Origin: Flavobacterium sp. KACC 22761
GTDB lineage: Bacteria; Bacteroidota; Bacteroidia; Flavobacteriales; Flavobacteriaceae
Reading direction: 5' to 3'
Length of the DNA: 64,000 nucleotides
NCBI RefSeq assembly: GCF_034058155.1
Contig: NZ_CP139148.1
Coordinates: forward strand, 2,914,001 to 2,978,000
Below are positions 5,545-8,071 of this stretch, in pieces (position 1 is the stretch's first letter; the number at the start of each line of letters is the position of its first letter). Below the pieces are notes generated by a model, which worked only from the letters and a program-made list of their open reading frames with translations, was not told the origin of the DNA and made no database searches. The position numbers were made by a program, and so were the translations under genes.

Positions 5545-6579
5545 ATGTATAAATTGATAATTCGCCCGATACTTTTTTGGTTTGATCCTGAAGAAGTGCA
5601 TTACTTTACTTTTTCATTTGTAAAATTCATTTCAAAAATCCCAGGAGTTTCGTCAATTATAAGAGCCATTTATGAAGTAAAAGATGCTCGATTAGAGCGA
5701 GAAGTTTTCGGAATCAAATTCAAAAATCCGGTTGGACTTGCAGCAGGTTTTGATAAAGATGCGAAGCTTTATAAAGAACTTGGAGATTTTGGTTTTGGTT
5801 TTATTGAAATTGGAACTGTGACCCCGGTTGGTCAGGAAGGAAACCCAAAGAAACGTTTGTTTCGTTTAAAAGAAGATCAAGCTATTATTAACCGAATGGG
5901 ATTTAATAACGGCGGTGTTATTGAAGCTGTAGAACGTTTGAAAAAGAATTCGGGAGTTTTGATTGGTGGCAACATAGGAAAAAATAAAGTGACTGATAAT
6001 GAAGATGCAGTTAAAGATTACATCATTTGTTTTGATGCCTTATTTGATCACGTAGATTATTTTGTGGTGAATGTAAGTTCGCCAAATACACCAAATTTAA
6101 GAGCTTTACAAGACAAAGAACCTTTGACAGCTTTGTTGCAGACTTTGCAAAACAGAAATGTTGAAAAACAAAAAACAAGTACTCAAAAAGTAAAACCAAT
6201 TCTTTTAAAAATCGCTCCAGACTTAACAGATGAACAATTATTAGATATTATTGATATTGTAAAAACAACGCAGATTGCGGGTGTAATTGCAACAAATACT
6301 ACAATTTCAAGAGACGAACTGCAATCTGCAAATCAATCAGAAACAGGAGGTTTGTCTGGAAAACCATTGACGAAACGTTCGACAGAAGTGATTCGTTTTC
6401 TTTCAGAAAAAAGCAATAAAGCGTTCCCGATTATTGGAGTAGGAGGAATTCATTCTGCTGATGATGCCATCGAAAAACTAAATGCAGGTGCAAGTTTAGT
6501 GCAATTATACACGGGATTTATTTATGAAGGCCCAGCGCTTATAAAAGCAATCAATAAAAAAGTTTTAGGACAATTGTAA
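5545..6579 (+). CDS. pyrD: Dihydroorotate dehydrogenase (quinone), class 2
   Basis: This enzyme oxidises dihydroorotate to orotate with quinone as acceptor, the fourth step of UMP synthesis, at the inner membrane. The 344-aa length and N-terminal amphipathic extension ([23 protein letters not shown]) mark class 2. Visible motifs: [14 protein letters not shown], the FMN-site [31 protein letters not shown], catalytic Ser in [31 protein letters not shown] and the phosphate-binding [13 protein letters not shown]. It converges with the DUF3307 gene and their 3' ends overlap by 15 bp, leaving no room for a separate terminator. Confidence 0.97.
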
Positions 6580-7281
6580 AAGAAGTGTCTGGATGATAAG
6601 TCCGGCCACGATTGCAATTCCAAAACTGATTAAAGTTCCAATCATTACATATTCAGTAAGTTTTCTGTCCTTGGCTTCTTGTAAATCTCCGAATCTAAAA
6701 ATACATTTTGCTGCCAACAGAAATCCGATTGCTTCAAAATGGTTCGTTAAAATAAAACAAACAATAAGAAGACGTTCTAATATGCCAATGTAATTTCCTG
6801 CATTGGCAAGCGAATTGTCCTGATGGCTGTTTTGACTTTCAGGGCTCCAGATTGAGATAATAGTTTTGATGAAAATTGAGATAGGTTTTGTTACCAATAA
6901 AAATCCTGTCAGCAAAATCCAAAATTCATTGTCTTGCCAAAAATAAATTATGTTTTTATTTTGATAAAGAAGCACAACAGCAATTAGAACTAGAATATGC
7001 GCAATTTGGTCAACAACAAACCAAGTGCGTTTGGTTTTCTTTTTCTGAAAATTTAGTTTGATTAAATCAATGATACCGTGTGTAATAGCGATTAAAATTG
7101 CATATGGAATAAATGCGATTTCCCAAGCGAGAATTGCAGCCAAAACTCCGTGAAGCATAATATGAGCATATAAGTAAAGGCTTTTATGTTTTTTGATTTC
7201 CTTGTCAGCAACCCACGAGTTTGGTTGCCAAATAAAATCACCTAATAAATGCGCTAAAAGAAGTTTTACGAATAAAATCAT
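6565..7281 (-). CDS. DUF3307 integral membrane protein
   Basis: A 238-aa hydrophobic protein with about six transmembrane segments. The N-terminal [22 protein letters not shown] and the following [12 protein letters not shown] and [10 protein letters not shown] are the DUF3307 hallmarks, with conserved Asp, Gln and His residues lining the first helices. Function is unknown. Its ATG overlaps the satD stop by 4 bp, implying translational coupling. SatD plus DUF3307 is a pairing also seen outside Bacteroidetes, so the two probably work together. The 3' end overlaps pyrD. Confidence 0.85.
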
Positions 7282-7889
7282 GGGGCAAGTTGTTTTATTT
7301 GTGTTCTAAAATATCGATCTAAATTTAGGACTAAATCAAATTGGGCGCGCTTTTGTCTTCGGCTTACGGCGGCTTGATTAATGCCTAGTTTCTGGCCAAG
7401 CTCTTCTTGAGACAAATCTGGATTTTCAATTGCCAAAGCAACAAACTCAGCAGATTGTACGAGCCAGCTATCCATAAAAGTCAAAGCCAATTGCAACATT
7501 AAATTCATTTTTTCATCAAAATCTGAATCGCCTGTTCGCATAGCTAAAGTGACTTTCTGTTTTTTTAAAGTTTCAAAAAGTTCCCCAGAATGTATAAATG
7601 CAGAACCATTGCTTTCAGAGATTTTTTCAGCATTGTGTGTTTTGTCTCCAAAACCAATGCTCATACGGGCATCAGATTTTATGGCTCTCAAACGAGCTTT
7701 TACTAAAATGGCGGTCAATAAAACATCTTCTGGATTTTTTACTTCGATTTGAAATTCATCTCCGCGATAAATTTCCCACTGTTTGGGCGTAACGCCAAGT
7801 GGACTCAGGATTTTTTTTAAATCATCGACCCAATGATTTGATTGCTGTTGTCTTGAACCAATAATATCGCCTGTAATTACACTAGTCAT
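7278..7889 (-). CDS. SatD-family protein with C-terminal helix-turn-helix
   Basis: A 203-aa protein. The N-terminal two thirds match the SatD family (VITGDIIGSRQ, then WEIYRGDEFQIEV, then KARLRAIKSDARMSIGFG). The C-terminal segment SQEELGQKLGINQAAVSRRQKRAQ is a clear helix-turn-helix, so it is probably a DNA-binding regulator. The GD...RGDE...IGFG spacing resembles a nucleotide-cyclase/GGDEF palm; that is inference. ATG at 7889 was chosen: the in-frame TTG at 7895 lies inside a TATATTTG box. It overlaps the DUF3307 start by 4 bp. Four palindromes with an exact 28-bp period lie just upstream and are the likely autoregulatory operators. Confidence 0.85.
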   Translation of the reverse strand: MTSVITGDIIGSRQQQSNHWVDDLKKILSPLGVTPKQWEIYRGDEFQIEVKNPEDVLLTAILVKARLRAIKSDARMSIGFGDKTHNAEKISESNGSAFIHSGELFETLKKQKVTLAMRTGDSDFDEKMNLMLQLALTFMDSWLVQSAEFVALAIENPDLSQEELGQKLGINQAAVSRRQKRAQFDLVLNLDRYFRTQIKQLAP

Positions 7890-7921
7890 AACCAAATATA
7901 ATTAAAAATTATAAACTTTGT

Positions 7922-8023
7922 ATTACAAATATAAGTAATATTTTTTGTTATTACGCTTTTTAGTAATATTTTAAAATATTACGTTTTTATGTAATAATAT
8001 TTGAGATTACAATTTTACGTAAT
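7922..8023. promoter_or_regulatory. Array of four ATTAC-N8-GTAAT palindromes, 28-bp period
   Basis: Four 18-bp inverted repeats, ATTAC-N8-GTAAT, start at 7922, 7950, 7978 and 8006, exactly 28 bp apart, with unrelated 10-bp linkers. The spacers are AT-rich (AAATATAA, GCTTTTTA, GTTTTTAT, AATTTTAC). The first palindrome contains the minus-strand box TATATTTG (7926-7933), a candidate satD -7 element about 37 nt before the ATG, so occupancy would block transcription. The array also lies upstream of the divergent HMG-CoA lyase gene. It looks like a cooperative operator, most simply for SatD itself. Confidence 0.75.
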
Positions 8024-8037
8024 AATCTCCCCAACAT

Positions 8038-8071
8038 ATTGTAGAGATGCAAGGTAGTGCGTCTCTACAAT
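8038..8071. repeat. Dispersed-type palindrome (ATTGTAGAGATGC / GCGTCTCTACAAT)
   Basis: Thirteen-base arms with a single G.T mismatch enclose an 8-base loop. This type of TTGTAGAGACGC hairpin is a recurrent intergenic repeat in many bacterial genomes. It sits between the satD operators and the HMG-CoA lyase gene and would interrupt an N-terminal extension starting at 8057. Confidence 0.7.

Follow-up and report, generated by a model that had tools for sequence, protein, structure and literature searches.

What reads four evenly spaced palindromes in front of a satD gene, and what does this reading do to the gene? We analysed a 64,000-nucleotide stretch of DNA from Flavobacterium sp. KACC 22761 (the window), in which the motif ATTAC-N8-GTAAT occurs in four perfect copies upstream of satD with a period of exactly 28 bp. 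The copies lie at 7922..7939 (site 1, nearest satD and holding a -7-like promoter box, with counterparts in close relatives), 7950..7967 (site 2), 7978..7995 (site 3) and 8006..8023 (site 4, farthest from satD). The original prediction had described four mismatch-free palindromes in this rigid register, and exact matching confirmed all four positions. The half-sites alone are constant, while the linkers between sites and the spacers within them vary. At the base frequencies of the window, 0.27 exact sites would be expected per 64 kb, and an independent-base estimate puts the probability of three more sites in register after a first at about 7e-17. We consider it likely that the four palindromes form an operator array of SatD, whose dimers would bind cooperatively at the 28-bp step and repress the satD-DUF3307 operon.

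The array is the sole standout in its own genome (5.04 Mb), since single sites are hardly enriched there: we found 23 exact sites, 19 of them scattered outside the array, versus 15 matches of a reversed control pattern. A two-site pattern with up to two mismatches gave three matches, which is the yield of these four sites, and none for the control; neither the exact-site nor the two-site search found a second cluster or a regulon in this genome. Exact periodicity is also expected of iterons, of a CRISPR-like array or of some repetitive element with no regulatory role, and a separate palindromic repeat does adjoin the array. This 28-bp imperfect palindrome (GTAGAGATGC...GCGTCTCTAC, 8041-8068) was found at five genomic places with up to two mismatches, with none for the control, and looks like an interspersed REP-like repeat; similar elements lie upstream of satD in several relatives (e.g. 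L017, L029 and L053). We nevertheless give a repeat without regulatory role practically no credence for the four sites, given their varying linkers and spacers around kept half-sites, the lack of a second cluster in the genome, and the symmetric change of both half-sites across lineages described below.

The gene behind the array, satD (7278..7889, minus strand), encodes a protein of 203 residues, which we propose to be a self-regulating DNA-binding protein. Its membership of the SatD family (PF16264) rests on 30.0 bits, barely over the curated cut-off of 29, and a whole-genome search with the same Pfam model returned no match in this genome. A mechanical list of open reading frames had placed the start at a TTG at 7895; we replaced it with the ATG at 7889, which fits the alignment of relatives. 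The second gene (6565..7281, minus strand) overlaps the end of satD by 4 bp and encodes a DUF3307 protein (PF11750, 102 bits). The C-terminal helix-turn-helix attributed to SatD from the letters was recovered by Pfam as HTH_24, above the cut-off, at residues 154-181, with about 140 residues ahead of it; compared with solved structures, it matched weakly (best E 0.068). Among the papers listed by our literature searches, none dealt with an operator of SatD or with what DUF3307 does.

We then examined the upstream regions of satD in relatives. Eighty named satD loci were taken, with 79 upstream regions inspected, and 80 further loci were taken from 299 genomes drawn from the genus; SatD identity in most of these was under 73%, the lowest values being about 31%. 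The period was scored by a letter-agnostic information score over three dyads with six agreeing half-sites, at periods of 20-44 and half-gaps of 2-7 in an upstream stretch of at most 230 bp, for 158 of the 160 loci (L089 and L140, with less than 110 bp upstream, were left out). The best period was 28 bp in 74/74 loci with SatD identity of at least 79%, in 41/43 at 55-73% and in 36/41 below 50%, that is, in 151/158 loci overall versus 10/474 dinucleotide shuffles. These bands hold many close relatives, so that the loci are non-independent events, and L085 and L168 are identical in sequence, leaving 73 distinct loci among the 74 rows of the highest band. Scores exceeded the highest shuffle in 140/158 loci, 139 of which had period 28 (74, 37 and 28 by band), and 12 of the 18 loci at or below the highest shuffle fell in the band below 50%. 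As controls, the regions upstream of DHODH genes gave period 28 in 2/73 cases and period 29 in 0/73, and stretches inside satD gave 4/160 and 7/160, respectively. Across 174 arrays, found with a search minimum of three sites, 107 had three sites, 61 had four, five had five and one had six, at a step of 28 bp in 162 and of 29 bp in 12. Almost all the relatives that we looked at thus have an array of this period upstream of satD, and the absence of such sites in related genomes, which would have refuted the original prediction, was not observed. A step preserved between such distant relatives while the letters vary points to rigid contacts from one dimer to the next.

At two loci the array is displaced behind an intervening stretch, and its sites begin 231-303 bp ahead of the ATG: it spans -303 to -230 from the ATG in L127 and -287 to -214 in L129. 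The period-28 score of L129 in the short-stretch scan was a chance match, the true array lying farther upstream. Both loci retain a TATATTTG box before the ATG.

The presence of the array follows that of satD. Among 92 genomes with a SatD match at E <= 1e-70 (identity of at least 57%), 85 carry an ATTAC-type array with up to two mismatches. The other seven comprise one locus at a contig edge with 49 bp of upstream sequence (G044), two clear arrays with other letters (ATTCC-N8-GGAAT three times at 28 bp in G124, and GTTAC-N8-GTAAC in G159), and four weak cases with TATGA/ATGAT-like half-sites and scores not above the highest shuffle (G073, G120, G214 and G287); the best period is 28 in the first three of these, and in G287 solely within a 700-bp stretch. 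With weaker SatD matches, the ATTAC pattern was found in 4/48 genomes, including G028, whose 64%-identical SatD is cut by the contig end. Genomes with no SatD match showed the two-site pattern in 15/159; the neighbours of the four array-like ones were checked, and for the remaining 11 the judgement was made on the letters of the match. In G179, G272 and G296, relic sites persist where satD once lay, next to the lyase and DHODH genes; satD is lost there and DUF3307 is gone or truncated, while the two-site match of G099, a genome with no SatD, has neither a lyase nor a DHODH neighbour. A natural series of operon decay is seen in L279, L281 and L286: satD is missing between lyase and DHODH, two to three array sites remain, and two of the three keep a DUF3307 fragment or an N-terminally truncated DUF3307.

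Since the array of the window sits between two divergent genes, it might instead serve the HMG-CoA-lyase-like gene on the other side. We regard this as very improbable: none of the 42 loci with SatD identity below 50% had a match to the lyase in the fetched flanks (mostly about 700 bp upstream), yet period 28 precedes satD in 36 of the 41 that were scored, so the array seems not to belong to the lyase.

Whether SatD itself reads the array was addressed through the letters of the half-sites. From 174 operators over the score limit, 98 non-redundant ones were used, in 24 half-site classes, some of which are set apart just by their register or a single inner letter. To measure covariation, we correlated the ranks of operator similarity with those of SatD identity in windows of 8 residues, as a partial correlation that controls for the rest of the protein; the windows were compared by identity alone, without a tree. 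The correlation peaked at residues 170-177 (98 loci; partial rho 0.47, median window 0.06, reached in 0/300 permutations), which is the recognition-helix segment INQAAVSR of the window SatD (7359..7382, minus strand). When the GTAAT class was removed (52 loci left), the peak lay at residues 171-178 (rho 0.42, 0/300 permutations). The best window outside residues 160-185 was 142-149, ahead of the helix-turn-helix, with all loci (0.34) and 67-74 without the GTAAT class (0.26).

The half-sites pair with distinct helices: GTAAT with INQAAVSRRQKRA, GTAAC with IKRAAVSRRQKRA, GGAAT with INQAAVSKRRKRA, CGATA with K[SK]QS[ST]IS types or I[EGS]QNSVS, GCCAA with KD[SA]TT[IV][NS]KALKRA or G, and ACATA with MNQGNIS. 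Among proteins of at least 78.5% identity, the four GTAAC rows (three distinct genomes) carry N171K and Q172R, both absent from the 72 others, including the window. They differ from all 72 at residues 36, 143, 165, 166, 171 and 172, and the switch may have arisen just once, within a single clade. Across lineages, the letters change symmetrically in both half-sites.

Our main reason for proposing that SatD reads the array is that the half-site letters follow its recognition helix. A different helix-turn-helix regulator, with SatD merely the regulated gene, would fit the weak match of the SatD helix-turn-helix to solved structures and a link between array and SatD that is sequence-based; we hold it improbable in view of the covariation over the 98 non-redundant loci, and of the two-site match in 15/159 genomes lacking SatD, of which three are relics at the former satD locus, one has no such neighbours and 11 were judged by their letters. 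Autoregulation by SatD, offered at first as the simplest model, is supported by the arrays before satD in relatives together with the covariation of helix and letters. Taken together, computation supports the existence and conservation of the array, its link to satD and its covariation with the helix, and it is very probable that SatD binds these sites and regulates its own operon.

We further studied whether such arrays occur outside the genus. With the Pfam SatD model, matches were obtained in 65/296 genomes drawn from the phylum, a lower bound because the same model missed the genome of the window. Of 70 loci, 69 were scored (L221 has no SatD frame), 68 of them distinct, as L260 and L274 are identical upstream. 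Period 28 was best in 19/69 and period 29 in 37/69 (56/69 together), versus 7/276 and 12/276 shuffles (19/276 together), and 32/69 loci exceeded the highest shuffle. The half-sites include ATTCG-CGAAT (L237), TCTGC-GCAGA (L238), ATAAG-CTTAT (L246 and L247), TCGGC-GCCGA (one site of L250), TATAG-CTATA (L253), TATCG-CGATA (L262 and L263) and GAAAC-GTTTC (L226). Seven genomes of one family, f23 (G350, G456, G464, G496, G504, G563 and G571), have two SatD matches each, and some loci of this family form a divergent group, mostly with period 29 and GAAAC-GTTTC-like half-sites.

SatD was also found on six plasmid or chromid records, all scored without a shuffle baseline. The Vibrio lentus plasmid shows the period clearly, with three copies of TTAGC-N8-GCTAA at 28 bp (score 59.2), and two Pseudoalteromonas records carry GTAAC-N8-GTTAC twice at 28 bp; two Salinivibrio records and the Segatella record gave weak two-site matches, and in one of them 35 bp scored slightly higher. 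DUF3307 is annotated directly after SatD in 4/4 annotated records. SatD seems to control one locus per genome, which for genomes other than that of the window we infer, and its operator letters would then drift with the helix while the geometry, set by the protein, stays fixed.

The sense of the regulation depends on where the promoter lies. Two TATATTTG boxes are found near satD, both on the minus strand and one more than had been noted: a candidate -7 box inside site 1 (7926..7933), and a copy just before the satD ATG (7893..7900), which is either a second candidate -7 box or a conserved translation start region. If the latter box were the promoter, the mRNA would be nearly leaderless. From the last site onward, the first TAnnTTTG lies inside that site in 51/74 loci of the band of at least 79% identity, and 0-11 bp past the dyad centre in 16/74. 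At 55-73%, a box overlaps the last site in 4/41 arrays, and the first TAnnTTTG comes at least 24 bp past the last dyad centre in 28/41; below 50%, no TAnnTTTG follows from the last site onward in 18/31. Overall, the first TAnnTTTG is at exactly -3 in 57/174 arrays, and 38/174 have no box. The ATG has a TAnnTTTG no more than 14 bp away in 73/74 (at least 79%), 36/44 (55-73%) and 1/41 (below 50%). The claim that a -7 box lies inside the first site therefore stands for the window and for 51/74 close relatives, but does not extend to most relatives at 55-73% identity.

These counts bear on the direction of control. A promoter at the ATG, if real, would place the array upstream of it, so that activation fits as well as repression: SatD might bind the array as an upstream activating region and drive its own promoter in a positive feedback. 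The boxes close to the ATG in the two nearer identity bands, the distance of the first box from the last dyad centre in most arrays of the 55-73% band, and the arrays of L127 and L129, 231-303 bp upstream, all speak for such feedback. Against it stand the box inside the last site, in the window as in 51/74 loci of at least 79% identity, and the same layout in hipBA, which represses (PMC3376134, PMC3920265). We judge activation unlikely, though clearly less so than a foreign regulator, and the promoter-box counts made us lower our confidence in the repression model by a small step, to the level stated at the outset. Because the overlap of box and site is missing in most relatives at 55-73%, repression is inferred, and for the window our best guess is repression by covering the promoter. 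In this proposed mechanism, a SatD dimer would sit on each 18-bp palindrome through its C-terminal helix-turn-helix, adjacent dimers would cooperate at the fixed 28-bp step, and the filled array would cover the -7-like box in the gene-proximal site and so shut down the satD-DUF3307 operon. Successive dimers may build a filament or wrap, as proposed at first; the same 28-bp spacing is found within the hipBA pairs.

The part of SatD ahead of the helix-turn-helix may hint at what releases such a repressor. In 68 SatD sequences, D8, R42-G43-D44, Q47, R75, G79 and G81 are invariant, a pattern which we take to recall class III nucleotide cyclases. Using profile similarity that includes the GDx[FY] and [VI]RxxIG motifs as the criterion for this class, we obtained an hhalign score of 28.1 against the class III cyclase profile at a probability of 16.6%, which is weak; 0/100 column shuffles reached this score, the best giving 25.1. 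In the window protein, residues 1-110 (7560-7889, minus strand) carry the invariant D and the RGDxFQ and VRMSIG-like motifs, and resemble in these a class III cyclase domain. A DNA-binding protein with a cyclase-like domain could sense or make a nucleotide. Pfam, PADLOC and PHROGs gave no functional name for SatD beyond helix-turn-helix or transcription-regulator labels, and DUF3307 is labelled a membrane protein in PHROGs (phrog_2470). Among the PADLOC 2023 anti-phage models, the best E value for SatD was 0.02 and DUF3307 had none at E <= 0.1, so neither was assigned to an anti-phage system.

The two genes are strictly paired. In the draw of 299 genus genomes, DUF3307 accompanies SatD in 140/140 genomes with SatD, and a DUF3307 match without SatD was found in five, all of them defective: weak matches with several stops in G094 and G168, 97 residues in G169, 32 residues in G179, and the first 44 residues missing in G272. 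No intact DUF3307 without SatD was thus found among the 299 genomes. In G240, the SatD frame is open and DUF3307 is in two pieces. In Streptococcus pyogenes, satD is reported to be essential in the tested strains though accessory, occurring in 178/249 genomes (PMC11323703). Strict pairing and an essential yet accessory satD are compatible with SatD keeping a harmful partner in check, though any obligate pair would look alike. Among the papers listed on SatD and DUF3307, none contained a toxin-antitoxin test of the pair. As a tentative idea, rather doubtful at present, SatD-DUF3307 could be an old and widespread toxin-antitoxin-like or sentinel module, in which SatD with its cyclase-like fold forms a HipB-like chain of cooperative repressors on 28-bp arrays until a sensed signal dismantles the chain and frees the membrane protein DUF3307. 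If this were true, the geometry of the array would be a structural constant and its letters would drift with the helix, giving a natural series for the specificity code of helix-turn-helix proteins.

The SatD family was named after a phenotype, secretion and acid tolerance in Streptococcus, whose SatD has the family name in common with the window protein, and we found no description of its molecular role; nor did an operator of the Streptococcus SatD turn up among the papers listed. The array offers SatD a role that can readily be tested, namely autoregulation of a unit of two genes, and supplies for this both a DNA target and a specificity predicted from the helix. Moreover, fixed geometry, drifting letters and many operator-helix pairs make up a data set for the rules of helix-turn-helix recognition and of cooperative assembly on DNA.

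Among known systems, hipBA is the closest in layout. The hip operators are 18-bp palindromes, TATCCN8GGATA, in which an 8-bp spacer separates two half-sites of 5 bp (PMC3376134), and at which HipB represses cooperatively (PMC3376134, PMC3920265). In the Escherichia coli promoter, counted from the start of hipB, O1-O4 begin at -134, -106, -67 and -39, so that hipBA, like the satD array, has 5-N8-5 palindromes 28 bp apart within each operator pair; several such palindromes at 28 bp indeed stand before the satD operon. The HipB recognition segment KQATIS also resembles the K[KS]QS[ST]IS of SatD proteins with a CGATA half-site, and HipB is among the best PDB matches of the SatD helix-turn-helix, at E values of about 0.08-0.12, which are not significant. 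In contrast, the two hipBA pairs are 39 bp apart whereas the satD sites form an unbroken 28-bp row, and SatD, unlike HipB, has a domain of about 140 residues before its helix-turn-helix. The satD unit was also considered as a HipBA module and rejected, since its second gene encodes DUF3307 (102 bits) in the place of the HipA kinase. YefM-YoeB and Kis-Kid have DNA-binding folds that differ from that of SatD. Both have paired palindromes overlapping the promoter and autorepression, which is cooperative for YefM-YoeB, and their spacing is unlike that of satD, at 12 bp centre to centre and as 18-bp repeats with a 33-bp spacer, respectively (PMC3920265). With a partner other than HipA, SatD resembles HipB-type cooperative autoregulators by likeness and not as a member of HipBA, and by this analogy it is best described as working like one, while a toxin-antitoxin-like function is suggested by its hipBA-like array geometry together with its strict co-occurrence with DUF3307.
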